Origin: Candidatus Omnitrophota bacterium
GTDB taxonomy: Bacteria; Omnitrophota; Gorgyraeia; Zapsychrales; Fredricksoniimonadaceae
Length of the DNA: 35,902 nucleotides
Reading direction: 5' to 3'
Assembly (NCBI GenBank): GCA_903908245.1
Contig: CAIVRE010000019.1
Coordinates: forward strand, 1-35,902
In this document: positions 1 to 25,441 of the stretch, in pieces
Numbering within the stretch: position 1 is the first letter of the stretch
Layout of the letters: each line of letters begins with the position of its first letter
Made by a program: the position numbers and the translations under genes
Notes under the pieces: model-generated
The model's input: the letters and a program-made list of their open reading frames with translations, nothing else
Databases searched by the model: none
Told to the model about the DNA's origin: nothing

Positions 1-3000
1 ATATTAATTGGCAGGATCTTCAGTCCATGACCAATACAGGAGTGAACTGGACAGATATCCAGTCGCTTTCGACGACCGGCATTAATTGGCAGGATATTGA
101 TACGCTGACGAAAACCGGCATTAATTGGCAGGATATTCAGTCCATGAGTAATATGGGCGTGAATTGGATAGATATCCAGTCGCTTTCGACGACCGGTATT
201 AATTGGCAGGATATTGATACGCTGACGAAAACCGGCATTAATTGGCAGGATATTGAAATATTATCCACCAAGGGGATCAATTGGATGGATCTTCAAACGC
301 TGACAAATGTCGGCGTAAACTGGATGGATGTTGAACGGCTGACGACCAATGCCATCAATTGGGATGATATTACGGTCATGGGGACCAGCGGTGTTAACTG
401 GATGGATCTTAATTATATGAGCGGGATCGGGGTTAACTGGTCGGATCTTAATGCCATGACCTCGCTAGGCGTTAATTGGAACGATTTCTCGGTTATGACG
501 AATGCCGGCACCAATTGGACGGATCTCTCTGTGCTCGCCAGTAATGCGATCAACTGGACTGATTTTGAAATAATGTCTGTGAATGGTATTAACTGGACCG
601 ATATTGCATCGATGCATAATGCCGGGGTGAATTGGTCTGATCTTGCCACATTGGCGACAACAGGCGTCAATTGGTCCGATCTTGAAACAATGACGGTTGC
701 CGGATTGAACTGGACAGATATTAATACCATGGCAAATTCTGCGATCAATTGGTCGGATATGGCGGTTTTAAGTGGTTCAACCATTAACTGGTCAGATATT
801 GCGACATTCTCTAATGTAGGCATGAATTGGCTTGATGTTCAAACATTAAGTAACCAGGGTATTAACTGGTTGGATATTGAAATATTGAGTACTGTAGGCG
901 TCAACTGGATGGATATGCAAGCATTAACAAATACTGCTATAAATTGGACAAATATTCAGGAGTTAAGTGTAACAGGAGTAAATTGGTTAGACCTTTCAGC
1001 AATGACTTCCGCCGGGGTTAACTGGTTGGATATGGACGCGCTTAGCAAAACCGGGATCAACTGGACAGACGTTGATGTGATCGCCAAACAGGGTATCAAC
1101 TGGATGGATTATGAAGTCCTTTCCAAGCAGGGATTAAATTGGTCGGATATAGAAGTGCTCAGCACTAAAGGCATCAACTGGAGCGATATTGAAACATTGA
1201 CCAAACAGTCCGTAAACTGGGCTGATATTGAAGTGCTGACAACACGTGGTGTCAACTGGCAGGATATTGAACGCTTGAGTGTTACGGGTGTCAATTGGGA
1301 TGATATTCAGCAATTAAGTATTAACGGATTGAATTGGTCGGATGTCGGAGTGTTGTCTGCAGCAGGTATCAATTGGCTTGATATGGGTGCGTTAAGCCAG
1401 TCGGGAGTGAACTGGACAGATATTAATAATTTAACTACAACCGGTATTAATTGGACCGATATTGATCAGATCTCAAAAACAGGGATTAACTGGACTGATA
1501 TTGGCAGGTTGACACAAAGTGGAGTGAACTGGACAGATATTGAACGCCTGACAACCAACGGGATCAATTGGGACGATATTACTGTCATGAGTTCTATTGG
1601 GGTGAATTGGTCGGACCTTAATTATATGAGTTCCGTCGGTGTTAACTGGTCCGACCTTAATGTCATGAACGCCCTTGGTATTAACTGGAATGATCTTTCT
1701 GTCATGACCAATGTTGGAACGAATTGGTCGGATTTTAGCATGATGACCAACCAGGCTGTTAATTGGGCAGATCTTAGTGTTATGACCGGTCAGGCGATCA
1801 ATTGGACGGATATCCAATCGTTTACGAATCAGGGTATTAACTGGTCTGATATTGAGAAAATTTCCAAGAGCGGAGTAAACTGGACGGATATCGAGGCGCT
1901 CAGTGTAACGGGTATTAATTGGAGTGACCTTGATGTTATCAGTAAGACAGGAATGAATTGGTGGGATCTGAGTATTATGGGTAATTCCAATATTAATTGG
2001 ACAGATCTTGCCGTATTAAGTGCCAACCAGATCAATTGGACAGATATTCAAACATTAACAGATACCGGGATTAACTGGACCGATCTTAACACATTGACTT
2101 TATCCGGTGTTAATTGGACAGATATTGAAAGATTAACAGCATCAGGGGTCAATTGGACGGATATTGAAACTATTAGTAACGCGGGAGTTAATTGGTTCGA
2201 CCTTAACATTATGAGTTCTACAGGAACGAATTGGGCTGATATTGCGGCGTTGAGCAATAACGGGATCAATTGGCAGGATATTGAATTATTTACCAAAACA
2301 GGGGTTAACTGGATCGATATTCAAACATTATCCAATTCCGGAATTAATTGGACAGATATCAATTCCGCGAGTTTAACAGGGATCAATTGGCAGGACATTA
2401 AAGAATTAACAAATACTGGTGTTAATTGGGCGGATATTGGAGCTATGAGCGCTCAGGGGCTTAATTGGTCTGATATTGAAAAATTATCAGTCAGTGGAGT
2501 GAATTGGACAGAAATTGAAAGCATTTCAAAACAAGGAATGAACTGGGATGATATTCAATTATTAACACAATCCAGTATCAATTGGACAGACCTGCAATCA
2601 ATGTCTTTAACAGGAATGAACTGGTCTGACATTGAGCTTTTGACCAAAACAGGGCTTAACTGGACGGATATTGATGTATTGGCTAAAACAGGGATCAATT
2701 GGACAGATATACAATCTTTAAGTAATGCAGGAGTGAACTGGACGGATATTACAGCCCTTAGTGATAGTGGTCTCAATTGGACTGAGATCTCCGATATGAG
2801 CGAAGTGGGTATCAATTGGTCAGATATTGGCATGCTCAGCAACAGCAGGATCAATTGGACGGATATTCAAACTTTGAGTAATACCGGGGTGAATTGGACC
2901 GATATAGACATGATGAGTCAAAGTGGTGTGAACTGGGCAGACCTGAATTATATGAGCAATGTCGGGGTGAACTGGTCTGACCTTAATATATTAAATGGCC

Positions 3001-6000
3001 TTGGAGTTAACTGGAATGACTTGTCAGCGATGACAAATTCTGGTGTTAACTGGAATGATATGGGGATGTTAACAGAAGCTGGTGTTAACTGGAATGATAT
3101 TGAGAAACTCAGTGATTCCGCAGTGAACTGGGCAGATTTCAATGCATTCACAACTTCAGGAGTGAATTGGGATAATTTCAGTTTGATGACAACATCCGGT
3201 GTTAACTGGACCGATATGACGGCTTTGAGCACTTCTTTGATCAACTGGCAGGATATGGAACAGGTCACTAAAACCGGGATCAACTGGATGGATATAGGGT
3301 CTCTGTCCACGAGTTCGATCAATTGGGCCGATATTGATGTCTTAACTCACCAGGGTGTTAATTGGCAGGAGATCGAACAGATCAGTAAAACAGGGATCAA
3401 CTGGTCAGATATTCAGATCCTGAGTGATTCCGGTGTGAACTGGTCGGATATGTCTGCGATGAGCAATATCGGTGTTAATTGGGTGGATATGCAAGTATTA
3501 ACGGACACAGGAGTTAATTGGTCGGCATTTAATGATATTAGCACGACAGGTATCAACTGGGCGGATATAGCAACACTGAGCCGTGCCAATATTAACTGGA
3601 CGGATATTCAAACGATCGCCGATCAAGGGATCAACTGGACCGATCTGGAAGTTGCTTCTGACTCCGGGATCAATTGGTTTGATATATCCGTTGAAAGTCT
3701 GGCCGGAGTTAACTGGTCTGATATCGCTTCTCTTAGTACAACAGCGATCAACTGGTCTGATCTGTCCGCGTTCTCTACTTCAGGTGTTAACTGGATGGAT
3801 ATTCAGTCGTTAACGCTTAATGGGATCAACTGGAATAATATTGAAACTTTAAGTGACACGGGCATTAATTGGTCTGATATTTCTGTAATGAGTGATACTG
3901 GCGTTAATTGGGCCAATATTGGATCATTGACAGATGCCGGGATCAATTGGATGGATATTAATGCGCTTTCCTCTGCTGCGATCAATTGGGCAGATATTAA
4001 TGCCTTAACTCAAAGTGCGCTTAATTGGACAGATCTTAGCACATTCTCTAATAGTGCGATCAACTGGACAGACATACAGATCATGTCGGCTCAAGGGATC
4101 AATTGGGCTGATATGGAAGCGTTGCATAGTGCTGGTGTGAACTGGAATGATTTTGAACGGATGACGAATTTGGGCGTTAATTGGGGCGATCTGGCCGTGT
4201 TGACGGATAGCGGACTTAACTGGACGGATATTCAAAAGATGTCCGGTGAAGCGATCAATTGGGATGATCTGGTGGTTATGTCCACCAAGGCCGTAAATTG
4301 GTCTGACCTGGGTATTCTTACCAATAGCGCGATTAATTGGATGGATATTGAAAAACTTTCTGATCAAGGGGTGAATTGGACTGATATTCAATCCTTATCG
4401 GTGACCGGGATCAATTGGATCGACCTGCAGCAGATGGGCGATAGCGGGATCAATTGGCAGGATATTGCGACCTTGAGTCAGGCACAGATCAATTGGTCGG
4501 ATATAAACACATTAAATTCTTCCGCTATTAATTGGACTGATATTTCTACAATGGCTGCTTCAGGTGTCAATTGGACTGATATGAATGTTATGACTGATGC
4601 TGCTGTGAATTGGGCTGATATTCAGACCATGACAAATTCCGGGATCAATTGGGAAGGCATTGTGGATATGAGTACAGCGGGTGTTAATTGGGGTGGGTTA
4701 AGCAATATGGCTTCTGCTCCGATCAATTGGGACGGGTTATCTTTATTGACCAATAGTGGCATCGATTGGGCGGCTCTTAATGCTATTACAACAAATAATG
4801 TTAACTGGGATAACCTTGGCCAATTGACCAGTGCCAATGTGAACTGGGATGGTTTAACGGTTATGTCTGAGGCTGGAGCCAATTGGGATGATCTGAGCAC
4901 TTTAACAAATTCAGGCATTAATTGGATCGACATGAATGTTATGTCCAATAATGCAGTTAACTGGATAGATATCGCGCAGATGTCTCTTGCCGGAACAAAT
5001 TGGAATGATATCAGTATGATGGCGGACATGGGGATCAACTGGGCCGCTTTTGATTCAATGACTGGAAGCGGGGTTAATTGGGCTGATCTTAATGTGTTAA
5101 CCACCACAGCGATCAACTGGGCTGATTTTGCGGCCATGACCGCTGCAAGTGTGAATTGGACCGACATGAATACTTTGTCTTCTGCCGGTATTAACTGGAG
5201 CGACATTGACCAGTTGGCTAAAGCAGGAATTAATTGGTCCGATCTGGATGTTCTCTCGGAATCCAGGATCAATTGGTCTGATATTGAAACAATGACAAAA
5301 ACAACTATTAATTGGAATGATCTTTCAGCCATGACTCAGGCTGCGATCAATTGGGATGATTTTGGCAGTCTGTCCTTGTCAACGATCAACTGGTTGGATA
5401 TGTCCGTCATGACAACGACAAGTATTAATTGGTCTGACATGTCTGCTTTAACGCAAACCGGGATAAATTGGACTGATATTGACACGATGTCTTTGTCTAC
5501 GGTCAATTGGTCGGATATAGCAGCGCTCACAGCAACGGGTGTGAATTGGGGAGATGTTGCAGTCCTGGCGCAAAGTGGTGTTAATTGGTCTGATATTGAT
5601 GCCATGTCCAAGGCCGGTGTGAATTGGATCGATCTTGCAACAATGACAACCAATGCTATTAACTGGAATGATCTGACATTGTTGACATCTTCCGGTATTA
5701 ACTGGTCGAATTTTGGCGAATTAGCCGGTTCCGGTATCAATTGGTCTGATATTAATATAATGAGTACGACCGGCATTAATTGGACAGATATTGATCAATT
5801 GACCCGTAGTGGTGTGAATTGGTCGGATATGAGTATTATGACCGATTCCAGTGTGAATTGGTCTGACCTCAGCGCGATGGCAACTGCTAACGTTAATTGG
5901 ACCGATCTCGGTACCTTGACGGATGCGGGGGTGAATTGGACCGATCTTCAAACCATGACCGCTGCAAGAGTGAATTGGGAAGAATTAAGTGTTATGACCG

Positions 6001-8681
6001 CTTCTAATGTGAATTGGACGGATCTTGATTCATTGACGAATGCCGGGGTGAACTGGACCGACCTGCAACGGATGACCGGTTCGAGTATTAATTGGGAAAG
6101 CCTTAGCGCAATGACTGCGGCGAATGTTAATTGGACAGATATGCAGTCATTGTCGTTAGCCGGTCTTAATTGGCAAGACCTGAGTGCCATGACGACCTCT
6201 TCTATTAATTGGGATAATTTTGATGTAATGTCCGCTGCGGGTGTTAACTGGGATGATATCGGGACCTTGACCGATTCAGGTATTAATTGGAGCGATTTCG
6301 GAAGTCTTTCGCAGTCCAGCATTAATTGGACGGATATTCAAACAATGACATCATCGTCCATGAATTGGGAAGATCTTGCTCAATTGACAGATTCGGGTAT
6401 TAATTGGAGCGATTTCGGAAGGCTCTCGCAGTCCAGTATTAATTGGACTGATCTTCAAACAATGACATTATCCCTGGTGAATTGGCAGGATCTTGGCCAA
6501 TTGACCAATACCGGTGTTAATTGGTCGGATATGACGGCGATGTCGTCATCACAGATCAACTGGGCAGATTTTGGAACACTGAGTAATACAGGAATAAACT
6601 GGCAGGATATTAATACGCTATCTTTTAGTGCGATCAACTGGAGCAATATTGCCGAGATGTCCAGTGCTGGTGTAAATTGGGATAGTCTTGGATCTATGAC
6701 CAATTCAGGGGTTAACTGGACCGATCTGCAGTCATTGACGGATAGTTCTGTTAACTGGACTGATTTAAGTGCAATGACTCAAAGCACGATCAACTGGGAC
6801 AGTTTTGGATTTATGTCCAATTCAGGGATCAATTGGACCGATCTGCAGGCATTGACTGACAGCAATGTTAATTGGAGCGATCTTGGCGCCTTAACACAAA
6901 GCACGGTTAATTGGGAGAGTCTCAGATTGATGACGGAAGCTGGTGTTAATTGGAGCGACCTTGCAACGCTTACAGCCACCGGGGTTAATTGGGATGAATT
7001 GCAAAAAATGACCCAGAGCGGGATTAACTGGATGGATATGTCCGCGTTGACAAATAACGGGGTGAATTGGACCGATCTAACGGTAATGTCGGAAACAGGG
7101 GTTAATTGGGAAGAGCTTGCAACGATCGCGGATACCGGGATCAACTGGTCGGATATGCAAGCCATGACAACGCAAGGTATTAATTGGGCAAGTCTTGGCA
7201 ATCTGACGGATGCCCAGGTGAATTGGGACGGATTAGCCGAGCTTGCGAGTTCAGATATTAATTGGGAAAGTTTAAGTAGTATGGCTGGCACGGGTGTGAA
7301 CTGGAGCGGTATTGCGGAAATGTCCTCAACCAATATTAATTGGGAAGATTTGAGAACACTTTCAACATCAAATATTAACTGGTCGGATATTTCCCAAATG
7401 TCGCGTGACGGGATCAATTGGGAAAGTGTCGGTGTTATGGCGGAGACTGGGATCAATTGGAATGATATTGCGCAGTTAAGTACGGAACTTATTAACTGGA
7501 CAGATATTATGTCCATGACCGCAAGTGGTGTGAACTGGGCTAATATTGGCGAACTTTCTTTGACCGGGATCAATTGGAACGAGATCGATAATTTGTCCCG
7601 TAATGGGGTCAATTGGGACGGTCTTGCGGCTTTTGCGAATACCAATGTTAATTGGTCAAGTTTGGCTGAAATGACGAGCTCCGATGTCAATTGGGCTGAT
7701 CTGAGTACGATCCTTGACGCCAAGATCAACTGGGATGATTGGGCTGTTATGTCTACGGCGAACGTCAACTGGAATGATACGGCATCAATGACCACCGCTG
7801 CGGTTAACTGGCAAGATGTCGGCAGCCTTGGCGCCGCAACAGTTGACTGGGTGGATATGGCGACAATGACGCGTTCCGGGATCAATTGGGGTGAAATGGC
7901 GGCAATGTCCCAGGCAGAAGTGAACTGGGATGATATTAAGTCCATGTCGACTTCCAATATTAATTGGGCTCAAATGTCGAATTTCTCCCAGAATGCTTCG
8001 ACCATGGTAAGCAACATGCAGCATATTTACGATGTGATCGGGAATATTACCGATACTGCCGGCACTAACAGCCTGATCGGAAAGATCTCCAAGATCTCGG
8101 ATGCGATCGGCACGAAAGATTTCAAGTCGATCATAGAATTGTTAGGCAAGAGCTCGGATACCTCAACCTCACAAACGATCTTTGGTGATATTAAAAATAT
8201 CCAGACATTGATCGGTACCGGAGGAGCAACCTCTGTGTTTACTCAAATGGCCACGATCCAGGATTTTGCCGAGAAAGGCAAAAATTCCGCCGGTGCGGCT
8301 CTTGGACTTGCGATGTCCATTGATGATGACCTGGGTGTTTATGGCAATTCTCCGAATATTTATGAAAAATTGAATGAGTTCTCAAAGTATATCCAGGATC
8401 TGAAGAAGAGTGCGGAAAGCCTCGGTGGAAAAGGTGAAGCGGCCGGCGGACTTGCCCAGGATGCGATCGGCATGCTCAAGAAGATACTGGAACAGCAGGC
8501 CAAGCTCGCGGGCCTTGAGAATACCGGATTGATGGTCGATAATCTTACCAAACAGCAGGCGCAGGACATGGAACGCGTCAATGCCAAGCTTGAAGAGATC
8601 GACGCCAAGCTGCGCGCTCTGCAGGAAGCCATGAAGGTCGATGATATTGTCGTCAAGACCTGGTTTGAAAGCGGGGAGTAA
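1..8681 (+). CDS. Giant 13-residue-repeat protein (3' part of gene, start upstream of window)
   Basis: The reading frame is open from the first complete codon (position 3) to TAA at 8679-8681, and the repeat is already running at base 3. The ATG at 27 is therefore only an internal Met, and the gene is larger than the roughly 2,890 codons seen. About 2,650 residues are tandem 13-residue units of the form N-W-x-D-(I/L/M)-x-x-(L/M)-(S/T)-x-x-(G/A/S)-(I/V). The last ~230 residues differ: Ile/Ser/Gly-rich helical segments, then Lys/Glu/Leu/Gln-rich sequence typical of a coiled coil, ending in an acidic tail. Hydrophobic residues at unit positions 2, 5, 8 and 13 suit a short amphipathic helix plus a turn, hence a solenoid. 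I saw no Cys in the repeats and only one Pro. Function is unknown. An extracytoplasmic fibre or a tape-measure-like protein are both possible. The next gene starts 6 bp downstream. Confidence 0.9.
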   Translation, partial: INWQDLQSMTNTGVNWTDIQSLSTTGINWQDIDTLTKTGINWQDIQSMSNMGVNWIDIQSLSTTGINWQDIDTLTKTGINWQDIEILSTKGINWMDLQTLTNVGVNWMDVERLTTNAINWDDITVMGTSGVNWMDLNYMSGIGVNWSDLNAMTSLGVNWNDFSVMTNAGTNWTDLSVLASNAINWTDFEIMSVNGINWTDIASMHNAGVNWSDLATLATTGVNWSDLETMTVAGLNWTDINTMANSAINWSDMAVLSGSTINWSDIATFSNVGMNWLDVQTLSNQGINWLDIEILSTVGVNWMDMQALTNTAINWTNIQELSVTGVNWLDLSAMTSAGVNWLDMDALSKTGINWTDVDVIAKQGINWMDYEVLSKQGLNWSDIEVLSTKGINWSDIETLTKQSVNWADIEVLTTRGVNWQDIERLSVTGVNWDDIQQLSINGLNWSDVGVLSAAGINWLDMGALSQSGVNWTDINNLTTTGINWTDIDQISKTGINWTDIGRLTQSGVNWTDIERLTTNGINWDDITVMSSIGVNWSDLNYMSSVGVNWSDLNVMNALGINWNDLSVMTNVGTNWSDFSMMTNQAVNWADLSVMTGQAINWTDIQSFTNQGINWSDIEKISKSGVNWTDIEALSVTGINWSDLDVISKTGMNWWDLSIMGNSNINWTDLAVLSANQINWTDIQTLTDTGINWTDLNTLTLSGVNWTDIERLTASGVNWTDIETISNAGVNWFDLNIMSSTGTNWADIAALSNNGINWQDIELFTKTGVNWIDIQTLSNSGINWTDINSASLTGINWQDIKELTNTGVNWADIGAMSAQGLNWSDIEKLSVSGVNWTEIESISKQGMNWDDIQLLTQSSINWTDLQSMSLTGMNWSDIELLTKTGLNWTDIDVLAKTGINWTDIQSLSNAGVNWTDITALSDSGLNWTEISDMSEVGINWSDIGMLSNSRINWTDIQTLSNTGVNWTDIDMMSQSGVNWADLNYMSNVGVNWSDLNILNGLGVNWNDLSAMTNSGVNWNDMGMLTEAGVNWNDIEKLSDSAVNWADFNAFTTSGVNWDNFSLMTTSGVNWTDMTALSTSLINWQDMEQVTKTGINWMDIGSLSTSSINWADIDVLTHQGVNWQEIEQISKTGINWSDIQILSDSGVNWSDMSAMSNIGVNWVDMQVLTDTGVNWSAFNDISTTGINWADIATLSRANINWTDIQTIADQGINWTDLEVASDSGINWFDISVESLAGVNWSDIASLSTTAINWSDLSAFSTSGVNWMDIQSLTLNGINWNNIETLSDTGINWSDISVMSDTGVNWANIGSLTDAGINWMDINALSSAAINWADINALTQSALNWTDLSTFSNSAINWTDIQIMSAQGINWADMEALHSAGVNWNDFERMTNLGVNWGDLAVLTDSGLNWTDIQKMSGEAINWDDLVVMSTKAVNWSDLGILTNSAINWMDIEKLSDQGVNWTDIQSLSVTGINWIDLQQMGDSGINWQDIATLSQAQINWSDINTLNSSAINWTDISTMAASGVNWTDMNVMTDAAVNWADIQTMTNSGINWEGIVDMSTAGVNWGGLSNMASAPINWDGLSLLTNSGIDWAALNAITTNNVNWDNLGQLTSANVNWDGLTVMSEAGANWDDLSTLTNSGINWIDMNVMSNNAVNWIDIAQMSLAGTNWNDISMMADMGINWAAFDSMTGSGVNWADLNVLTTTAINWADFAAMTAASVNWTDMNTLSSAGINWSDIDQLAKAGINWSDLDVLSESRINWSDIETMTKTTINWNDLSAMTQAAINWDDFGSLSLSTINWLDMSVMTTTSINWSDMSALTQTGINWTDIDTMSLSTVNWSDIAALTATGVNWGDVAVLAQSGVNWSDIDAMSKAGVNWIDLATMTTNAINWNDLTLLTSSGINWSNFGELAGSGINWSDINIMSTTGINWTDIDQLTRSGVNWSDMSIMTDSSVNWSDLSAMATANVNWTDLGTLTDAGVNWTDLQTMTAARVNWEELSVMTASNVNWTDLDSLTNAGVNWTDLQRMTGSSINWESLSAMTAANVNWTDMQSLSLAGLNWQDLSAMTTSSINWDNFDVMSAAGVNWDDIGTLTDSGINWSDFGSLSQSSINWTDIQTMTSSSMNWEDLAQLTDSGINWSDFGRLSQSSINWTDLQTMTLSLVNWQDLGQLTNTGVNWSDMTAMSSSQINWADFGTLSNTGINWQDINTLSFSAINWSNIAEMSSAGVNWDSLGSMTNSGVNWTDLQSLTDSSVNWTDLSAMTQSTINWDSFGFMSNSGINWTDLQALTDSNVNWSDLGALTQSTVNWESLRLMTEAGVNWSDLATLTATGVNWDELQKMTQSGINWMDMSALTNNGVNWTDLTVMSETGVNWEELATIADTGINWSDMQAMTTQGINWASLGNLTDAQVNWDGLAELASSDINWESLSSMAGTGVNWSGIAEMSSTNINWEDLRTLSTSNINWSDISQMSRDGINWESVGVMAETGINWNDIAQLSTELINWTDIMSMTASGVNWANIGELSLTGINWNEIDNLSRNGVNWDGLAAFANTNVNWSSLAEMTSSDVNWADLSTILDAKINWDDWAVMSTANVNWNDTASMTTAAVNWQDVGSLGAATVDWVDMATMTRSGINWGEMAAMSQAEVNWDDIKSMSTSNINWAQMSNFSQNASTMVSNMQHIYDVIGNITDTAGTNSLIGKISKISDAIGTKDFKSIIELLGKSSDTSTSQTIFGDIKNIQTLIGTGGATSVFTQMATIQDFAEKGKNSAGAALGLAMSIDDDLGVYGNSPNIYEKLNEFSKYIQDLKKSAESLGGKGEAAGGLAQDAIGMLKKILEQQAKLAGLENTGLMVDNLTKQQAQDMERVNAKLEEIDAKLRALQEAMKVDDIVVKTWFESGE
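3..254 (+). repeat. Recent 117-bp (three-unit) tandem duplication at the start of the array
   Basis: The block at 3-119 is repeated nearly identically at 120-236, and a third copy begins at 237. The two full copies share the run from gatatccagtcg (54 and 171) to the next attaattggcagg with almost no differences. This is much closer than typical neighbouring units, so it reflects a recent expansion of three units at once. Confidence 0.85.
3..8000 (+). repeat. Tandem array of 205 protein-coding 39-bp units
   Basis: The Asn codon of the Asn-Trp pair falls at 6 + 39k. I checked positions 6, 411, 1620, 1956, 2946, 3906, 4764, 5856, 6831, 7845 and 7962, and all fit exactly. From 6 to 7962 is 204 x 39, giving 205 Asn-Trp positions with no net insertion or deletion. 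Trp appears invariant. Asn is replaced by Asp at 4764 and 7845. Codons vary freely (aattgg/aactgg and others), so most units are old copies held by selection rather than recent clones. Confidence 0.95.
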
Positions 8682-8687
8682 TTCGCA

Positions 8688-10013
8688 ATGATATCCTGCC
8701 GTAAGCGCCAAGCTTTCGCTGTTACCGGGGCAGTCGTTGCAGGTTTGTTTTGTCTGTGCATTTCTTTTGCTTCGGCGGATGTGATCATCAATGTCCTGGC
8801 GGTGAACGGGACTGATGTCTCTCAGGATAAAGATATTCAATTTAGCATACCCGGTGAGATCAAACCGGCGGATATCCTTGATGCCGCCGGGCTTGAGGTC
8901 GATTACAATATCAAGGATTCTGGTTATTTCCTTCATGGCAAGTGTTTGCTTGCGCCGAAAGAATCGCGTACGTTCAAGGTGAGGATCCGTGATGTATGGC
9001 GCGTTTCCGATGAACAGACCGCCAGTATCCGTCAGGAGATTGATCAGGGGTTCAAGGAAATGGGCGCGGAGAAGAGCGTGGCGAACGGGCAGCTTTTGAA
9101 AGAGCAGCTGCTGGCCAAGCTGGAGTATGTTTTAGACCAGGAAGCGCAGGCAACAGGCACGATCGATCAGCGCATTGATACTTATCGCAGTCATCTTCAA
9201 ACCCTGGAAGATATCCGTACCAAAGCGAAACTGATCGATTTTTGGCGGTCAGACGCGCGGGACCAGGAAAGCAAGAAGATCGTTCAATATGTCCTGGAAG
9301 TCACGAATCCTACGGACAAGATGAGAAAGGTCAAACAGCAGCATTTCCTTCCGCCGGAAGTCCGTCCGGAATATGTGGTGGACCGCCAGGGGTATGAGAT
9401 CCGTTTCGATGAAAAGAAGAATACCTCTTTTCTTTTTAAAGAAGAAGACCTCGCGGCCAATGAGAAGAAAAGCATCAAGATCGGGATCCGGGATGTCTGG
9501 TTCATTCAGCAGAAGGACCTTGATTTTATTCATGAGCGTTCGACCGGGATGTATGAATCCCTTCAGTCCTCCGAGTTCGCCGCTACGGCCAAGAGCCTTT
9601 ATGACGAGATCATTAATAACCTGGATTTGATCGCATCCCTGCAGGCGATGCCGCAGCCGGATATCAACCAGCATATTGGCGCGTTTAGGATCAACCAGAA
9701 ACGGCTGGAACAGGCCAAGAACGATTTTGATGCCCTGGAAAAGTTGATTGCACGGCACCGGGCGGAACTGGAGAAAAGCAAGCTCAAGAATGTCATGCAG
9801 AAGATACAGTCCCTGAAGTCGCTGGCGCGCGTTTCACAGGCCATCTTTGACAAGAAGCCGACGGTCAATGCCGCCTGGAAGATCATTGGCAGTGTCATGA
9901 TCTTTCTGGCGATATTCACCATGATCTATTTCATTACTTGGAGCATCAGGACTTCCAAAGAGAAGAAACAGGAAGAAATGACAATTCCTAAAGAGGAAAA
10001 GAAAGAAGCATGA
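8688..10013 (+). CDS. Exported membrane-anchored protein with internal duplication, partner candidate of the giant protein
   Basis: The 441-residue product has an N-terminal signal peptide (hydrophobic ~10-28, ending near FASA), a long extracytoplasmic part, one membrane helix at about 395-418, and a short Lys/Glu-rich tail predicted to be cytoplasmic. Two segments look duplicated. Residues ~46-120 and ~222-290 both run from a Pro-rich start through a Gly-(Leu/Tyr)-Glu stretch to an IRDVW motif (100-104 and 267-271), followed by an amphipathic helix. Long Lys/Glu/Gln/Leu helices (~115-170 and ~300-375) suggest coiled coils. GGGGAG lies nine bases before the ATG. The gene begins 6 bp after the giant gene and its TGA overlaps the alpha-subunit ATG. 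I recognise no family. The topology would allow a link between a periplasmic or surface protein and a cytoplasmic motor; this is inference. Confidence 0.85.
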   Translation: MISCRKRQAFAVTGAVVAGLFCLCISFASADVIINVLAVNGTDVSQDKDIQFSIPGEIKPADILDAAGLEVDYNIKDSGYFLHGKCLLAPKESRTFKVRIRDVWRVSDEQTASIRQEIDQGFKEMGAEKSVANGQLLKEQLLAKLEYVLDQEAQATGTIDQRIDTYRSHLQTLEDIRTKAKLIDFWRSDARDQESKKIVQYVLEVTNPTDKMRKVKQQHFLPPEVRPEYVVDRQGYEIRFDEKKNTSFLFKEEDLAANEKKSIKIGIRDVWFIQQKDLDFIHERSTGMYESLQSSEFAATAKSLYDEIINNLDLIASLQAMPQPDINQHIGAFRINQKRLEQAKNDFDALEKLIARHRAELEKSKLKNVMQKIQSLKSLARVSQAIFDKKPTVNAAWKIIGSVMIFLAIFTMIYFITWSIRTSKEKKQEEMTIPKEEKKEA

Positions 10014-11497
10014 GCATTAAACTTCAATATACAGAAGAAGGGATCGTTAAGGCTATCCGCGGTTGTATTGTGATCGTGACGGGCTTTCAGAATTGCATTA
10101 ACGGCCAGTTGATCCGGTTCGGATTTGGGACGATCGGCCTTATCGTCGGGTTCAATGAATCCGAGGCGCAGGTCCTGATCATTAAAGAAGCGGAAAAGAT
10201 CCGTACCGGGCAAAAGGCGATCGCTTCGATCGAGCCTTTTTATACTCCGGCGGGCAAGAATTTCATCGGGCGCATTGTTAATCCCCTTGCGGAGCCGCTG
10301 GATGGCCTTGGGCCTATTACGGCGGATATTATGGCGCCTATTTTCCCGTCGTGTCCACCGATCCTGGACCGGCAACCGTTGAGCAAGACGCTGGAGACCG
10401 GGATCAAGGTCCTTGATGCCATGATCCCTATCGGGCTTGGGCAGCGTGAGCTTATTCTGGGTGACAAGATGACGGGCAAGACCACGTTTGTTACGGATAC
10501 GATCATCAATCAGCGCAATACCGGCGTGGTATGTATTTATTGCGGTATCGGTAAAGCGCGCGCGTCCCTTGCCAAGGTGGTCCAGCTTTTCAAGGATCAT
10601 AAATGTTTTGATTATAGCCTGATTGTTTCTGCTTCGGCTTCATCCACACCCGGACAGCAGTATCTGGCGCCGTACGTGGCGTGCGCGCTGGGGGAATATT
10701 TCATGCAGCGCGGGCAGGATGTGTTCATCGGGTTTGATGACTTTACGAAACATGCCTGGTGTTATCGCGAAATATCGCTTTTGCTCGGCCGTCCGCCGGG
10801 ACGCGATTCTTATCCCGGAGATATTTTTTACCTGCATTCAAAAATGATCGAACGTTCGTGCTATCTGAGCAAGGAACAAGGCGGCGGCTCAATGACGTTC
10901 TTTCCGATCGTTGAGATCCTGGAAGGGGACCTGACCGCGTTCGTCCCGTCGAACCTGGTGTCGATGACGGATGGGCAGATCCTCTTGAGCGCCCAGATCT
11001 TTGGTGAAGGGCAGAAGCCGGCACTGGACCTCGGGCTTTCCGTGTCCCGCGTTGGTTCCAAAGTGCAATGGTCGGCGATCAAGAATCTTTCAGGCCCGTT
11101 GCGCCTGGAATATTTACAGTACCGCGAACTCCTGCGCCTTTCCAAACTGAAGACATCCGGCCAGTCCGACGATATGAAGCAGAAGCTCAAGCGTGGGCTT
11201 ATCCTCACCCATATTCTTCGCCAGGATAAAGATGCGCCGGTTTGCCTGGAGATGCAGGTTTTTGTTTTTTATGCTTTTAACAGAAAATATATGAATGACC
11301 TTACGATCGAGCAGGTGAATATTTTTCAGGCCGAGTGTCTGTCGTATACGCAAAAGAACAAGCCGGAACTGATCACGTTGTTGCGCGAAAAGAAGAAGCT
11401 TGAACCCGAGATCGAGAAGCTGCTTGATACAGCCATTAGCGGTCTTATCGGCGACATCAGGAAGCGCGCGCCAAAATCGGCGGGCCAGGACGATTAG
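10010..11497 (+). CDS. atpA: F-type ATPase alpha-like subunit, N-terminally short
   Basis: The 495-residue protein aligns along its length with F1 alpha: beta-barrel, nucleotide-binding domain with P-loop GDKMTGKT (the usual GDRQTGKT with Met for Gln), the RRPPGR-like GRPPGRDSYPGD segment, TDGQI, and the arginine-finger motif SVSRVGS. All motifs needed at the alpha/beta interface are visible. It begins almost directly at the beta-barrel (EEGIV at residues 9-13), lacking roughly 19 residues that precede this point in E. coli alpha and bind delta. An in-frame TAA at 9989-9991, with no start codon after it, shows this is not a start-site error. The ATG overlaps the preceding stop (ATGA), implying translational coupling. 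The length is close to that of the alternate (N-type) F-ATPase family. Confidence 0.95.
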   Translation: MSIKLQYTEEGIVKAIRGCIVIVTGFQNCINGQLIRFGFGTIGLIVGFNESEAQVLIIKEAEKIRTGQKAIASIEPFYTPAGKNFIGRIVNPLAEPLDGLGPITADIMAPIFPSCPPILDRQPLSKTLETGIKVLDAMIPIGLGQRELILGDKMTGKTTFVTDTIINQRNTGVVCIYCGIGKARASLAKVVQLFKDHKCFDYSLIVSASASSTPGQQYLAPYVACALGEYFMQRGQDVFIGFDDFTKHAWCYREISLLLGRPPGRDSYPGDIFYLHSKMIERSCYLSKEQGGGSMTFFPIVEILEGDLTAFVPSNLVSMTDGQILLSAQIFGEGQKPALDLGLSVSRVGSKVQWSAIKNLSGPLRLEYLQYRELLRLSKLKTSGQSDDMKQKLKRGLILTHILRQDKDAPVCLEMQVFVFYAFNRKYMNDLTIEQVNIFQAECLSYTQKNKPELITLLREKKKLEPEIEKLLDTAISGLIGDIRKRAPKSAGQDD

Positions 11498-11515: not shown

Positions 11516-11791
11516 ATGGCGGCAAAATATAAAGGCAATTTTCGCTGTGTGATCCTGAGCGCCAAGCGCCTCATTCTTGAGGAAGAAGTGAACAGTGTTT
11601 TTATCACGGGGGATCGCGGCGAGTATGAACTTTTGGCGTATCATTATCCTTTGATCGGGATCATTGCCGGGGATATCGTTATCAATTGGGACCGGAGGCT
11701 TCCGGCCAGGGGAGGGGTTGTCCGGTTCTTCGCCAATGAGTGCAATATAATGATCGAGGAAAAGATCGAATCCGTATCACAAGGCAAATAA
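11516..11791 (+). CDS. atpC: F-type ATPase epsilon-like subunit, beta-sandwich domain only
   Basis: The 91 residues match the N-terminal beta-sandwich of epsilon: an opening strand, an ITGDRGEYELLAYHYPLI segment equivalent to the conserved GELGIxPGHAPL region, and GGVVRFF near the end. The C-terminal helical hairpin of ~45-50 residues, which inhibits ATP hydrolysis in bacterial epsilon, is absent; the protein stops soon after the last strand. GGGAG sits just upstream of the ATG. It lies 18 bp after alpha and 15 bp before the first c gene. Epsilon normally contacts gamma and the c-ring, so its presence argues for a rotary architecture. Confidence 0.85.
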   Translation: MAAKYKGNFRCVILSAKRLILEEEVNSVFITGDRGEYELLAYHYPLIGIIAGDIVINWDRRLPARGGVVRFFANECNIMIEEKIESVSQGK

Positions 11792-11806: not shown

Positions 11807-12025
11807 ATGTTAGCAGAAACATTTATTATTCTTACGGTCATGTTCATCGCGGTGATGGGGCCTTCGGTCGTTATTTCTGTCCTGGGGTATGCGGTCATTA
11901 AGGCGCTTAGCCGCAATCCATCGTCGGCATCCAAGATATTTATGGGAATGGCGATCCTTCTGGTGTTCGTGGAAGCGATAGCGATCGTGTCGATCCTGGT
12001 TATTTTTCAGTTGTTCGCGAGGTAG
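11807..12025 (+). CDS. atpE: F-type ATPase c-like proteolipid subunit (copy 1)
   Basis: The 72 residues form two membrane helices joined by a polar loop containing SRNP, equivalent to the conserved RQP/RNP loop that meets gamma and epsilon. The second helix carries Glu in LVFVEAIAIV, the position of the ion-binding carboxylate. The first helix lacks the normal glycine ladder and instead has MGP followed by bulky residues, so helix packing in the ring should differ from standard c. It aligns over its full length with the next gene, and both keep the Gly-Pro, LG, PS and MG positions. Confidence 0.88.
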   Translation: MLAETFIILTVMFIAVMGPSVVISVLGYAVIKALSRNPSSASKIFMGMAILLVFVEAIAIVSILVIFQLFAR

Positions 12026-12031
12026 AAAACC

Positions 12032-12262
12032 GTGAAATTCCAGTTTTGGCATGAAGGGTTTGTATTCATCGGTTGTTTTCTGGTCATGGTGGGCGTGCCG
12101 TGTTTCCTTATTGCCATGCTGGGGACACGCCTGATCGACAGGCTTGGTCAGTATCCAAGCCGCAGCGCCAGGTTGCTGATGGGTGTTTGTTTTCAGCTTT
12201 TGATGGTCGAGATATTCGGATTTTGTATGATCGCGCTTTTTTTACATGTTTTTTCAGATTAG
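12032..12262 (+). CDS. F-type ATPase c-like proteolipid subunit (divergent copy 2)
   Basis: The start is GTG, 6 bp after copy 1, with the upstream GAGGT overlapping the end of that gene. The 76-residue product again has two membrane helices, a QYPSRSAR loop in place of the RNP loop, and Glu in the second helix (LLMVEIFGF). Helix 1 has VGVP where copy 1 has MGP. The two are clearly paralogues (shared LG, PS, MG and VE positions) but differ at most other residues, so they may form a mixed ring rather than be a recent duplication. A TAG/TAA-free run of equal codon quality supports real translation. Confidence 0.82.
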   Translation: MKFQFWHEGFVFIGCFLVMVGVPCFLIAMLGTRLIDRLGQYPSRSARLLMGVCFQLLMVEIFGFCMIALFLHVFSD

Positions 12263-12308: not shown

Positions 12309-13067
12309 ATGGGTTTGGAATTAGTCATCCAGTTTCTGGTGTTAACAACGATCGTCAGCGGCGCGATCATTTTTGCGCTACATCGGGTCTTTGTTTCCAG
12401 TGTGGACGGGGCCAAACAGCGCCTTGACCGGGATGCCGAAGCGGCGCGCGCGAAAGAGGCGGAGCTTAACCGTAAGATCCGCCAGGCGGACGAGGAGCTT
12501 GCGCAGCGCAAACGCGAGCTGGATTCGCTTGAGCAGAAAATGAAAGGCGAACTGGAAGCCGAGGCGAACAAGCACAAGGAAGAATTGGTCAATAAAGCCC
12601 GCGCGGAAGCCGAGGAGATCATTGTCAAGGCCCAGAATGCAGCCGACGGGATACGCCGTGATATTGAGAAGCAGATGGAGCTCAAGATCATTGATTATTC
12701 CACCAAGATCCTGGATGATATTTTGACCAAGAAAGCCAAAGCGGCATTGGAGCGGGACCTTATTGATGATTTTATTACACAGCTTAAGGCTGTGGACATG
12801 TCGAAGATCAGTACCGAGATCAAACATGCCGATATTGTGACCGTGAACGGGACGACAGAAGCGGATGTGAAGAAGTTCGCCGAGATCATTCATTCCAAGA
12901 CCGGACGGGATATGACCCTGACCGCTAAAGTGGAGCCCGGGCACATCAGTGGCGTTGTGCTTAAGTTCGGCAGCCTGCAGCTTGACGGGAGCTTGAAGAC
13001 CGCTATTCGTGATAATGCGTTTGCGCTCAAGACGCTGATCGAAAAAAGTTATCAGGACAAGAAATAA
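12309..13067 (+). CDS. atpF: F-type ATPase b subunit fused to delta C-terminal domain
   Basis: The 252-residue protein has one N-terminal membrane helix (~5-27) and then a long charged helix rich in Ala/Glu/Lys/Arg (~30-130), as in the b stalk. The C-terminal part (~165-250) matches the C-terminal domain of delta (OSCP): a betaalphabeta stretch, then KVEPGHISGVVLKFG and LDGSLK. The delta N-terminal six-helix domain, which grips the alpha N-termini, has no counterpart. The size and layout resemble the long b subunit of the alternate/N-type F-ATPases. AAGGAG lies at 12296-12301. The protein should act as the peripheral stalk, anchored in the membrane. Confidence 0.88.
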   Translation: MGLELVIQFLVLTTIVSGAIIFALHRVFVSSVDGAKQRLDRDAEAARAKEAELNRKIRQADEELAQRKRELDSLEQKMKGELEAEANKHKEELVNKARAEAEEIIVKAQNAADGIRRDIEKQMELKIIDYSTKILDDILTKKAKAALERDLIDDFITQLKAVDMSKISTEIKHADIVTVNGTTEADVKKFAEIIHSKTGRDMTLTAKVEPGHISGVVLKFGSLQLDGSLKTAIRDNAFALKTLIEKSYQDKK

Positions 13068-13075
13068 GGGCAGTT

Positions 13076-13933
13076 ATGGGAAAGGCCAACAAGGTCAAAC
13101 GGGAAATGATCGAGGTTCGTGACCTTGTTGAGCTGGTGCAGGTCCTCAAGGATATCGCGGACATGAAGTTCCGTGACTTGTTTGCCCGGCGCGGCGGTTT
13201 TCAGCGTTTCGGTGAATCTTTTGCCGAGTTTTTCCGGCTTCTGGAGTATACCGAGATCGCGCATCCGTTGATATCGAACACGAATCCGAATCTTTGTATT
13301 GTCGTGATCACGTCCGAAGAAGGGTTCATCGGGGATCTGAACAACAAGGTCATTGTCCGCGCGCTTGAGGAGAGGGATAAATTCCCTGATGCACAGTTTG
13401 TGACCGTAGGGCGCAAGGGTGTGATGAAGCTTTCCATGATGGGCGTCAAGAATGCCATGACCTTTGAAGAGATCGCCGACCGGGGCATGTATGAAACCTC
13501 GGTTTTGCTTAAGGATTATCTGGTGGAACAGGTGATGACCGGCAAGATCGGGAAAGTCCTTGTGGTTTATCCCTGGCCCAAAGATCTGCAGACGGTTAAA
13601 GCGCGGGTGGTCAAACTTTTGCCCTGCGGGTTCATTTTTCAGAAGCAGAAGCAGAAAGTGGAGCAGTTCAACTATGTGATCGAGGAGTCGGACCCTCTGG
13701 ATATTATCGGTTACCTGGCGAATTTATGGACCTCGTCGAAGATCTATGAAATGATGTTCGATACCAGCATCGCGGCTGTTTCAGCGCAGTCGCAGCAGCT
13801 TGATACGAGTTTGACGAATGTTAAGAAAGAGGGCCAGGCTGTCAAGATGCGGTATCGCAAGGCTCGAAAGAATGATATTGACAAGAGTCTCCGCGAGGTT
13901 TTTTCTTCGAGGATGATGTCGATGTCCAAGTAG
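13076..13933 (+). CDS. atpG: F-type ATPase gamma-like subunit (central stalk)
   Basis: The 285-residue product has the gamma layout: an N-terminal helix with IKxV-type spacing, a central Rossmann-like domain, and a long C-terminal helix (~225-285) rich in Ser/Gln/Lys that would fill the alpha3beta3 core. The usual SDRGLCGGLN segment appears as TSEEGFIGDLN, so the region is recognisable but diverged. It begins 8 bp after b-delta and ends 22 bp before beta. Its length equals that typical of alternate-type gamma. Retention of the central shaft argues that the complex still rotates. Confidence 0.88.
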   Translation: MGKANKVKREMIEVRDLVELVQVLKDIADMKFRDLFARRGGFQRFGESFAEFFRLLEYTEIAHPLISNTNPNLCIVVITSEEGFIGDLNNKVIVRALEERDKFPDAQFVTVGRKGVMKLSMMGVKNAMTFEEIADRGMYETSVLLKDYLVEQVMTGKIGKVLVVYPWPKDLQTVKARVVKLLPCGFIFQKQKQKVEQFNYVIEESDPLDIIGYLANLWTSSKIYEMMFDTSIAAVSAQSQQLDTSLTNVKKEGQAVKMRYRKARKNDIDKSLREVFSSRMMSMSK

Positions 13934-13946
13934 CGGAATTCATTGA

Positions 13947-15398
<1,452 letters not shown>

Positions 15399-17196: not shown

Positions 17197-18408
17197 ATGC
17201 CGGTATTTGTTTATAAAGCCAAGAAAGAGAACGCGGAGACTGTTGCCGGGGATATTATCGCCCGCGATAGTGACGAGGCGGTCGAGTTATTGACCCGGAG
17301 AAATCTTATTCCGGTCTCGGTGGAAGAGCGGTCTTCTGCCAGCGGCGGTTTGTTGCGCGATCTAAAGGTTTCCAGGATAGGGCTTAAGCAGATGTATGTT
17401 TTTACCCGGCAGCTGGTGGCCCTGCTGAAGTCGGGAGTTGCTTTACTGCAGGCGCTTGATGTCCTCGGCCGTCAGACAAAACATGCGTATTTTTCCAGAG
17501 TTCTGGTGGAAGTCGCGGCCAGTATCCGCAATGGCCGTTCTTTTTCCGATTCCCTTTCTGACCATCCGGCGGTGTTTTCATCGTTATATGTGGCGATGGC
17601 ACGGGCGGGCGAGGAGAGCGGACGCCTTCGGGAATTGCTGGCGAATATGACCGTGTATTTCAAGAAACAGGACGAGATATCTTCCCGGATCCGGGCCGCG
17701 TTAGCTTATCCTGCCTTTATGCTTGGCGTGGGGATCCTGACGGTTTTCTTTATCCTGACATTTGTGATGCCGCGCGTTGCGGTGCTTTTTAGCGGGATCA
17801 ATACTCCGTTGCCCTGGCCTACGGTGTTTATCATGGGCTTGAGCCGTGGCGTGGTGAAGTCATGGCCTTTCCTGGCGGGTTTTGTTGTTGTCGGGGCGAT
17901 CGCGGCGCGGACGTTTGATCAGGCGGTCTGGTTACGCCGGGGGGTAGGGCAGTCCCTGGCATTGATCCCTTTTGTGAGGGAACTGGCGCTTAAAGTGGAT
18001 TCGGAGCGTTTTGCCCGTACATTGGGGTTGCTCCTGCAAAGCGGGATCCCGATCCTGAAGGCGCTTGAGGTGGCCATTCCGACGTTGTCGATCGAAGACT
18101 TGAAAAGTTCATTGTTGTTGGTGCAGCAAAGGGTCGCCGGCGGCGCAGGCTTCGGGGACGCGCTTAAAGAGGTCTCGGCCCTGCCGGAGATGTTCGCCCA
18201 GCTGATCTCTGTCGGGGAAGAGTCCGGTGAGCTGGCGGATACGCTGATGGATATCGCGGATACTTACGAGCAGGATATCGGGGAGGTTTCCAAAACGCTG
18301 ACGACGCTCCTTGAGCCGTTGATGATATTACTGGTGGGGGCTATTGTCGGGTTCATTGTTTTTGCGATGCTGCTGCCGATCTTTCAAATGGATATTTTGG
18401 CACAATAA
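17197..18408 (+). CDS. gspF: Type II secretion inner-membrane platform protein GspF
   Basis: The 403-residue protein begins with VYKAKKENAETVAG, the usual GspF/PilC opening, and contains two copies of the T2SSF helical domain (~70-195 and ~275-395). Each starts with FTRQLVALLKSG-like or FARTLGLLLQSG-like sequence, and membrane helices lie near 165-195, 220-240 and 375-398. GspF links the cytoplasmic ATPase to the growing pseudopilus. The gap to gspE is 39 bp. Its stop is one base from the start of the metallopeptidase gene. Confidence 0.95.
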   Translation: MPVFVYKAKKENAETVAGDIIARDSDEAVELLTRRNLIPVSVEERSSASGGLLRDLKVSRIGLKQMYVFTRQLVALLKSGVALLQALDVLGRQTKHAYFSRVLVEVAASIRNGRSFSDSLSDHPAVFSSLYVAMARAGEESGRLRELLANMTVYFKKQDEISSRIRAALAYPAFMLGVGILTVFFILTFVMPRVAVLFSGINTPLPWPTVFIMGLSRGVVKSWPFLAGFVVVGAIAARTFDQAVWLRRGVGQSLALIPFVRELALKVDSERFARTLGLLLQSGIPILKALEVAIPTLSIEDLKSSLLLVQQRVAGGAGFGDALKEVSALPEMFAQLISVGEESGELADTLMDIADTYEQDIGEVSKTLTTLLEPLMILLVGAIVGFIVFAMLLPIFQMDILAQ

Positions 18409-18409
18409 C

Positions 18410-19219
18410 ATGCGGTTATTTTTATTGCTTCTTATATTTTCCATCGGAGTATTTTTTCCAGGCCAGGCGGTGGCCCAGGATGCGTTCATTGACTTGAAGA
18501 GCACGCATTTTGTTGTGCGCTATACGTTGCCGGGAGAAAGAAATACGGCGGAGGAGATCCTCGATCAGGCGGAACAGATGTATGTGCGTGTTTCACGCAA
18601 CATTGGTTTTACGCGGTATGCGGACTTCTGGACCTGGGATAAGCGCGTCAAGATCATCCTGTTCCCCGATCAGATCTCGTATACGCGTTTTACCGGCCAG
18701 ACGCAATGGTCCAGGGGGTATGCTTCACGGGATTCCAAATTGTTCCGTGACCGTGTCGTTGTTACTTATGACGGCCAGCCGGAGATCTTCAGTGCGATCC
18801 TGCCGCATGAGATCGCGCATTTGATCCTTTGGGACCTCCTGGCGGAAGATGCCGGGAAGACGCCGGTCTGGTTCGAGGAAGGCGTGGCGCAGCTGGAAGA
18901 ACAGGGGAAGCGGCAGCTGGTCAAGGACGCGATGCGCCCGGTCATTGCCGCGGGCAAGCATATTCCGTTCAATGTGTTCATTGATCTTAAACCCTCGGAA
19001 TTGCAGGATGAGTCCCAGGTATCGCTTTTTTACGCGCAAAGTTTATCGGTCGTCGTATTTCTTATAGAAAAGTATGGACAGGACGCCTTTTATCGGTTAT
19101 CTAAAGAGTTGAGGGATGGCCGCAATTTTGAGGCCGCGCTGGTGCGCGCGTATAGCGGGATATTCGGTTCGATGGCGGATCTTGAAAGCCGGTGGATTGC
19201 AGACGCTTCAAGCCTTTAG
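18410..19219 (+). CDS. Exported zinc metallopeptidase, MA (gluzincin) clan
   Basis: The ATG at 18410 is preferred because it gives a clear signal peptide (LFLLLLIFSIGVFF... ending near AVA); upstream codons in frame belong to the gspF overlap. The ~269-residue product carries HEIAH at residues 133-137 and WFEEG near 155-158, the third zinc ligand being the second Glu. This matches the peptidase-MA-like family. It should act in the periplasm. Its place between gspF and gspG is unusual: it could mature a secreted substrate or assist the pseudopilus, though the sequence does not say which. Confidence 0.85.
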   Translation: MRLFLLLLIFSIGVFFPGQAVAQDAFIDLKSTHFVVRYTLPGERNTAEEILDQAEQMYVRVSRNIGFTRYADFWTWDKRVKIILFPDQISYTRFTGQTQWSRGYASRDSKLFRDRVVVTYDGQPEIFSAILPHEIAHLILWDLLAEDAGKTPVWFEEGVAQLEEQGKRQLVKDAMRPVIAAGKHIPFNVFIDLKPSELQDESQVSLFYAQSLSVVVFLIEKYGQDAFYRLSKELRDGRNFEAALVRAYSGIFGSMADLESRWIADASSL

Positions 19220-19242
19220 CGTTAACATTAGGGGAGGGTACA

Positions 19243-19647
19243 ATGGGGAAAAAAGCTTTTACGCTGGTTGAGATCATGCTCGTCGTTATTATTATCGGTG
19301 CGCTGGCGGCAATGATCATCCCTCGCCTCTCGGGGCGTTCGGAGCAGGCCAAGGTTTCGGTGGCACAGGCCGATATTCAGGCGCAGCTGGCTACCGCGCT
19401 TAAACTTTATGAGCTTGATAACGGGATGTTCCCCACCACGGCCCAGGGCCTGGCGGCGCTCAAAGACAAGCCTGCCGGAGACCCTCAGCCGAAGAACTGG
19501 CGCGGCCCGTATATTGAGAAAGAGCCGGTCGATCCCTGGGGGAATGCTTATGTGTATGTTTCACCGGGCACCCATCGTACCGATTATGACCTTTCTTCCA
19601 AAGGCAAGGATGTGGCTTCCGCTCAAGATGACATTAATAACTGGTAA
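19243..19647 (+). CDS. gspG: Major pseudopilin GspG
   Basis: The 134-residue protein starts at the ATG after GGGGAGGG. It has a short basic leader and a class III prepilin site KKA|FTLVE, with Glu at +5 and Ala rather than the usual Gly at -1, then a 20-residue hydrophobic helix. The C-terminal part shows GspG hallmarks: DNGMFPTTAQGL, GPYIEK, DPWGNAYVYVSPG and YDLSSKGKD. The length is typical. The 3' end overlaps gspI by 20 bp. Confidence 0.95.
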   Translation: MGKKAFTLVEIMLVVIIIGALAAMIIPRLSGRSEQAKVSVAQADIQAQLATALKLYELDNGMFPTTAQGLAALKDKPAGDPQPKNWRGPYIEKEPVDPWGNAYVYVSPGTHRTDYDLSSKGKDVASAQDDINNW

Positions 19648-20068
19648 ATGGCCCCGGCCTTTTGGTCGTCGGGGCATTACGTTTATCGAGGTGATGGTGA
19701 CCGCGGTCATTCTTTCGGCCGGGCTTGTGGCCATCTACCGGTCGTTTTTTATCGGTGTTGATTATCTTGACCATCTTTCTCGCCGTTTATGCGCACTGGA
19801 CCTTATTGAAAGCCGGGTTGCGGCCATTGAGCGCGATTTTCGTGTTTTAAGGGATGTGGATGTCGGCCGTCTTAACGAGACGGTGCTCCTCAACGGCCGT
19901 CCGGTCGATTTTAAATATAATATTCAACTTAAGCCCGTCGGGCAGTTGCTTTCGGTCTTTCAGCTCGACATTGCCTTGTCGTGGGTTGAGCGCGGCCGTG
20001 AGGTCGAGATCGCGCGGTCGGCGTATTTTTCGGGGATAGGGTCAACAGAGAAAGGGAAAGGGAATTGA
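19628..20068 (+). CDS. gspI: Minor pseudopilin GspI-like
   Basis: Starting at ATG 19628, inside the end of gspG, the ~146-residue product has a basic leader RRG|ITFIEVM with Gly at -1 and Glu at +5 and a hydrophobic helix. The remainder resembles GspI in length and in the early ALDLIESRVAAIE helix. Gene order G-I-J-K supports the call; no gspH is seen. It ends in TGATG with gspJ. Confidence 0.8.
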   Translation: MTLITGKWPRPFGRRGITFIEVMVTAVILSAGLVAIYRSFFIGVDYLDHLSRRLCALDLIESRVAAIERDFRVLRDVDVGRLNETVLLNGRPVDFKYNIQLKPVGQLLSVFQLDIALSWVERGREVEIARSAYFSGIGSTEKGKGN

Positions 20069-20661
20069 TGCGCAGCTCCCGCCGTGCCTTTACTCTTGTT
20101 GAGATCCTTCTGGTCACAACCCTGATCGCCGGGATATCGCTGGCGGTCTTTTCCTGCCTGATCAATGGCCTCAGATTATGGGACCGCAGCCGCGTGCTCA
20201 TGATCGAGGAAGATGCGGCGTTCTTTTTCGACCGTTTTTCTTCCGACGTGCGCAACAGTTTTCCGTTCAGCACGCTGGCTATGGTGGGGGCCGAGGGCAC
20301 GCTCGCTTTCCCGACGATCGTTATGACAGGATCCGACAGGGCCGGAAGCCGTTCGGCGGAAGTCCTTTCCGATGGCATCGGGATGGTCCAGTATGTCTTT
20401 TCAATATCGACCGGCGAGCTTTCCCGTCTTCAGGCGAATTATTCCCAGGGCTTGCGCGGGTCCTGGGGAGAGCCCAGGCCGATGATCAAGGGGCTCAAGC
20501 GTGTGCGGTTCAAGTATTTTTCGACGGCCGGGGATTACAGGCTCAGCCAGGACCCCGGAGACCCGTTCCCGGCGGGGGTTGAGGTCGAGCTCCTGTTCAT
20601 GAACGGTTCGAACGAGAAATTCCTGCGGCGGTTTGTCCCTGTTCCGGCGGGGTTGAAATGA
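20068..20661 (+). CDS. gspJ: Minor pseudopilin GspJ-like
   Basis: The ATG in TGATG is chosen over a TTG three bases earlier. The 197-residue protein has the prepilin site RRA|FTLVEILL (Ala at -1, Glu at +5) and a hydrophobic helix, then GspJ-like sequence with a WDRSR helix, an acidic aromatic patch and a GLKRVRFKYF strand near 145-155. It is coupled to gspK by an ATGA overlap. It should form the pseudopilus tip with GspI and GspK. Confidence 0.82.
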   Translation: MRSSRRAFTLVEILLVTTLIAGISLAVFSCLINGLRLWDRSRVLMIEEDAAFFFDRFSSDVRNSFPFSTLAMVGAEGTLAFPTIVMTGSDRAGSRSAEVLSDGIGMVQYVFSISTGELSRLQANYSQGLRGSWGEPRPMIKGLKRVRFKYFSTAGDYRLSQDPGDPFPAGVEVELLFMNGSNEKFLRRFVPVPAGLK

Positions 20662-21686: not shown

Positions 21687-21698
21687 TCCATTTTTGGG

Positions 21699-21728
21699 TT
21701 GAAGCCTTCTTCCACATTGGTCTATAAT
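21699..21728 (+). promoter_or_regulatory. Sigma-70-like promoter for the gspL unit
   Basis: TTGAAG at 21699-21704 and a perfect TATAAT at 21723-21728 are separated by 18 bp, within the 66-bp gap after gspK. It is well placed to start transcription about 18 bases before the gspL ATG, giving the L-M-TPR-nuclease group its own promoter. Confidence 0.65.
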
Positions 21729-21752
21729 GATTTTATCTAAGGTCAAGGAGCT

Positions 21753-25274: not shown

Positions 25275-25441
25275 TTTTTCTCTTCCCGGGTATTCCTTTT
25301 ATTCGCGCCTAACCATATATACTGCAATGTTTTTCTTCCTGTAAGACGGGTTTTCTAAAAGAAAGCGTTTTCTCGATCTTCTCCCAAGTCCTTGTAATCA
25401 AGTCTTTTATATTGAATACTTGTTATTGGTGGAACAACTAT

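Follow-up and report, generated by a model that had tools for sequence, protein, structure and literature searches.

The window analysed here is a stretch of 35,902 nucleotides that makes up the whole of contig CAIVRE010000019.1 (C19) in a 2.16-Mb, 34-contig genome (GCA_903908245.1) of a Candidatus Omnitrophota bacterium. Omnitrophota are widespread, have almost no cultured members and are believed to live as predators or associates of other cells. The contig edge falls inside a giant gene, the reading frame of which is open at the 5' end from position 3 and ends with a stop codon at 8679-8681. The giant gene is followed on the same strand by the gene for a 441-aa protein (hereafter, X), by genes for an F-type ATPase and by genes of a T2SS/T4P-like system, as listed below.

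3..7997, forward strand: array of 205 in-register 13-residue units (hereafter, NW units), the 3' part of the giant gene
7998..8681, forward strand: non-repeat C-terminal domain of the giant, including the stop codon
8640..8678, forward strand: C-terminal tag DDIVVKTWFESGE (VVxTWxE-like)
8688..10013, forward strand: X, 441-aa protein, proposed anchor of the giant
10010..11497, forward strand: F1 alpha-like subunit
11516..11791, forward strand: epsilon-like subunit, N-terminal domain only
11807..12025, forward strand: c-like ring subunit
12032..12262, forward strand: second, divergent c-like protein (c')
12309..13067, forward strand: b-delta fusion, peripheral stalk
13076..13933, forward strand: gamma-like subunit
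13956..15398, forward strand: F1 beta-like catalytic subunit, with the GERxREG motif kept
15421-17157, forward strand: GspE/PilB-type ATPase
17197-18408, forward strand: GspF/PilC-type platform protein
18344..24726, forward strand: Peptidase-MA protein, GspG-like protein, two more pseudopilin-like ORFs, GspK, PilM-PilN, PilO and a TPR protein

The array comprises 205 consecutive 39-bp units (window positions 3-7997), each encoding 13 aa, with zero slip. The Asn codon falls at 6+39k and the final one at 7962, in agreement with the exact Asn-Trp spacing that had been noted from the letters alone (hereafter, the sequence-only reading). The unit consensus is [IV]-N-W-[ST]-D-[ILM]-x-x-[LM]-[ST]-x-x-G, with Trp present in 205/205 units and Asn in 203/205 (Asp in the remaining two); the hydrophobic positions 2, 5, 8 and 13 of the sequence-only reading correspond to W3, I/L6, L/M9 and I/V1 in this numbering. 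That most units differ from one another was also borne out, as 204 of the 205 were distinct, both as protein and as DNA. The mean unit-unit identity was about 43% (aa) and 55% (DNA) and showed no trend with lag; because identity stays flat with distance, the array is old and diversified, the sole exception being a recent duplication of 117 bp (3 units) at the contig edge. Pairwise pN between units was lowest at N and W (0.00-0.01), intermediate at the remaining patterned positions (0.16-0.47) and highest at positions 4, 7, 8, 11 and 12 (0.62-0.68); pS was 0.55-0.78 at nearly all positions. The constraint on the units is thus site-specific, since pN tracks the consensus while pS stays high, which agrees with the structural selection proposed earlier.

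Covariation was analysed over ~6,100 distinct units, with an effective number of about 2,600. The two strongest covarying pairs were 7-11 (i,i+4), where E-K was observed 69 times against an expected 20, and 5-8 (i,i+3), where D-R and D-K were enriched and D-D was strongly depleted. Averaged by separation within positions 4-12, the signal was clearly above zero at 3 and 4 alone. Position 4 favours S/T/D/N, and 80% of units have Gly at position 13, as expected if the two were helix caps. AlphaFold, run on 17 units, predicted a single short helix (about 6-10 residues) in each unit, with low confidence overall (mean pLDDT 49.4, pTM 0.24). Taken together, covariation and prediction give good support to one helix per 13-aa unit, spanning roughly residues 5-12. 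This part of the sequence-only reading stands; the packed solenoid with a Trp ladder that it also proposed is a candidate arrangement at most, given the pLDDT of 49 and a covariation analysis in which no coupling specific to adjoining units was found. Couplings between identical positions of different units were rejected as contacts because they persist at a 6-unit gap and involve invariant columns.

Searches of the array against Pfam and NCBIfam profiles returned sub-threshold matches only, with none over a curated cut-off, and no family in the PDB fitted by sequence search; the sequence-only reading had not recognised the repeat as a named family, and these databases supplied none. The weak Pfam, NCBIfam and PDB matches were rejected as compositional. 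Plasmid tblastn hits in Peribacillus and Mesomycoplasma, with 30% and 13% identity, run opposite to annotated genes and were attributed to chance. Phages gave no hits.

The remaining NW repeats of the genome occur only at the end of another contig, C7, where a giant gene begins with a signal peptide (...ASAFA-Q) followed by about 300 non-repeat residues. Assemblies mostly break within the array, so that contigs end in a 5' or a 3' fragment of the gene. Together with synteny to a sister genome (G001, an Omnitrophota MAG) and the lack of other copies, this leads us to infer that C7 and C19 carry the 5' and 3' parts of one giant gene that was split by assembly. In G001 the orthologue is intact on a single contig and encodes 10,958 aa (about 1.20 MDa, pI 4.05) with 802 NW sites, 791 of the 801 intervals between them being exactly 13. 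Judging from its signal peptide, the giant is probably an exported protein. NW repeats were detected in 55 of the 384 genomes sampled from the phylum, and an X-like sequence in 155 of them.

The structure predicted for X (pLDDT 83) has a signal peptide, two modules each of a beta-sandwich and a helix, a long helix and, at the C-terminus, a single TM helix; in a fold search of the PDB with X, no match reached E<=0.001 (best 0.11). Nearly all genes directly upstream of X share a VVxTWxE-like tag at their ends, whether or not they encode NW units: one pattern matched 52 of 60, and tagged giants without NW units were found at L089, L090, L095 and L156-L158. In other lineages, the C-terminus of the giant and X form one polypeptide, fused where the genes of the window are split. 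The split genes of the window read VVKTWFESGE* / ADVIINVLAVNG and the fused counterpart reads PVVSTSLAPGSVKFRIAVANPS, and in the fused giants the tag position leads without a break to the first X strand. The shared tag and the fusion through its position suggest that the giant and X act as one unit. A variant was seen on a single contig of G127, where two giants ending in PVVQTWxEYS (L089 and L090) are each followed by a half-length X-like protein, with ATPase genes absent beside these pairs.

The ATPase encoded downstream of X has alpha and beta subunits that pass the atpA/atpD cut-offs, and the catalytic machinery is conserved across the related loci, with the catalytic Glu motif kept in 45/45 beta sequences and the Arg finger in 69/69 alpha sequences. 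Subunit a (PF00119) is absent from the locus. Matches to PF00119 sit on other contigs and, in every case that was fetched, accompany a canonical ATP synthase; in G039, G043, G045, G046, G048, G052 and G053, an NW/ATPase locus is present and the genome has zero PF00119 matches. L146 and L148, which both carry NW genes, have Q in place of the acidic ring residue of c, and L091, L092, L093 and L096 have Q or V there. In the alpha tree, which included no Mycoplasma rows, the sequences of the NW/ATPase and related loci were separated (98/99) from the canonical copies encoded in the same genomes. The loss of the c acid in some loci while the catalytic motifs are kept points to ATP hydrolysis without ion pumping, and the ATPase likely performs ATP-driven mechanical work rather than ion transport. 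The c' protein was found mainly in loci with the gene order of the window, and its acidic residue is gone in several relatives.

Within 10 kb, the F-type ATPase is co-located with GspE/F/G/K, PilMN and PilO. Upstream of the giant on C7 are genes for a small protein, a secretin, a TPR protein and two FGE-sulfatase-like proteins, and all the NW 5' ends inspected with upstream sequence were preceded by secretin, TPR and/or FGE-like genes. The two FGE-sulfatase-like (SUMF1-type) proteins lie directly 5' of the giant (L010:11868-15133 on C7) and are kept in most NW loci. Among the 66 places with X and the ATPase in the fetched stretches, which were picked via X or NW matches and so are not a random sample, an NW gene lies directly upstream of X at 46 and X is fused to the end of a different giant (>3,100 aa) at 7; several others have a separate non-NW giant. 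The conserved order is secretin/FGE-like genes, giant, X, F-type ATPase and GspE/F/G/K-PilMNO. Exceptions were observed at L134 (G371:C120:1-7296), where an NW gene with the conserved C-terminal domain has a 3' neighbour other than X, and at L108 (G040:C10:1-20000), where two X-like genes (280 and 737 aa) lie in tandem at an ATPase/pilus locus and are not directly preceded by a giant.

Seymour et al. 2023 (PMC10066038) described, in the part of the paper covered here, non-respiratory 'symbiotic' F-type ATPase genes beside type-4a pilus genes in Omnitrophota, and an extra Omnitrophota alpha reported as kin to Mycoplasma type 2/3 motors. The window shares with that locus an ATPase set apart from the respiratory copy and co-located type-4a pilus genes, and is very probably an instance of it; the pairing of ATPase and pilus genes and the extra alpha are thus already known from the covered part of PMC10066038. 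The same part treats giant ORFs as a separate feature and does not describe X, the NW array, the shared tag or the fusions. The repeat, X, the tag and the giant-ATPase link appear to be new with respect to the literature covered. The giant ORF of V. archaeovorus, as described in the covered part of PMC10066038, has 39,678 aa and 42 TM helices. Like it, the NW giants are very long proteins of the same phylum with predicted export, but they have no TM helix visible beyond the signal peptide, and they have a 13-aa repeat and a fixed ATPase neighbour.

Mycoplasma species have type 2 (M. mobile gliding) and type 3 (F1-like X0, MIB-MIP) ATPases, of which the type 2 ATPase drives gliding (PMC3369863, PMC12994834, PMC11864180). 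As in those systems, the window encodes F1-like alpha, beta, gamma and epsilon without subunit a, and the ATPase adjoins a large protein with a signal peptide and a C-terminal TM helix; the Mycoplasma ones work with surface proteins. The Mycoplasma clusters lack c, b and delta homologues, whereas the window keeps c, c' and b-delta and adds a pilus/T2SS set. No relation of X to the large protein of the Mycoplasma type 2/3 clusters was found in any search run. The alpha of the window scored below the curated MMOB1660 and MSC_0619 models (381 of 600 and 282 of 520 bits), and its beta below the MMOB1670 and MSC_0618 models (402 of 850 and 385 of 570 bits). We regard the combination of an F1-like motor, a signal-peptide/TM protein and a surface protein as a close functional analogy with the Mycoplasma systems. 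Compared with the F1Fo ATP synthase, the alpha, beta, gamma, epsilon, b-delta and c subunits are homologous, and the differences are the missing subunit a, another gene order, the loss of the c acid in some loci and a separate alpha lineage.

We consider it highly likely that the giant, X and the ATPase belong to one system, and we lean, with modest confidence, towards a surface machine driven by ATP in which the giant is the anchored outer arm. In such a machine, the giant would be exported and its C-terminal tag would dock onto X, which would be anchored in the inner membrane next to the c-like ring. The F1-like ATPase, with its b/delta stalk and no subunit a, would hydrolyse ATP to turn the c ring, and torque or force might reach the outer NW arm via the c ring and X, the link between X and the c ring being a conjecture. 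The arm would extend out through the secretin/pilus apparatus, with the NW units as a length-adjustable spacer, and would hold, pull on or move along other cells. This reading is based on gene content, gene order, fusion, conservation and one helix per unit, from which we infer export, docking, coupling, motion and cell contact. More tentative is the specific proposal that a rotary F-type ATPase without ion transport drives a megadalton extracellular arm via the c ring and the anchor, as a motor for surface movement or prey handling in Omnitrophota, with giant arms interchangeable across the phylum.

Against the arm reading, the GspE ATPase of the same cluster could power everything outside, and L134 and L108 depart from the giant-X-ATPase arrangement. 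Instead, the T2SS/T4P-like system may secrete the giant as an adhesin, coat or tether with a passive role, and the F1-like ATPase may power export or assembly, or prime the pilus, without moving the giant. We regard this as possible, if rather unlikely: a near-complete T2SS/T4P set surrounds the giant, the phylum's giant ORFs have been proposed as adhesins or coat (covered part of PMC10066038) and the giant + half-X pairs of G127 have no adjoining ATPase, but GspE would normally be enough for pseudopilus-driven export, and it is the ATPase genes, not the pilus genes, to which X and the giant are adjacent or fused.

An improbable alternative is that the giant stays unexposed in the periplasm as a scaffold or ruler joining the ATPase-anchor complex to the secretin. 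The signal peptide, the predicted inner-membrane anchor X and the fixed position in the locus would fit such a role, yet about 11,000 residues (G001) go far beyond the need for spanning the periplasm, and giants in a similar position are completely different in sequence. Scores over the atpA/atpD cut-offs would also suit an ordinary second ATP synthase or ion pump with the giant as an unrelated neighbour; this is already disfavoured and very improbable, in view of the missing subunit a, the c acid lost in some loci, the separate alpha lineage, the X-giant fusions and the near-fixed gene order across families of the phylum.

With the giant read as the working arm of an ATP-driven envelope machine, a testable model is available in which one locus joins two separate puzzles of Omnitrophota, the giant ORFs and the extra F-type ATPases, and supplies a defined anchor protein and a candidate docking tag. 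It is the gene-cluster context, unused in the sequence-only reading, that says most about function. The analysis also defines an unnamed 13-residue helical repeat, with about 800 copies in one protein.

Further downstream in the window, a 1,238-aa ORF (25412-29128) had no Pfam match, and an 886-aa protein (32942-35602) combines a GtrA-type membrane domain at its N-terminus with a long C-terminal part that is uncharacterised. Between them lies a tRNA-Ala (CGC) at 29229-29305.
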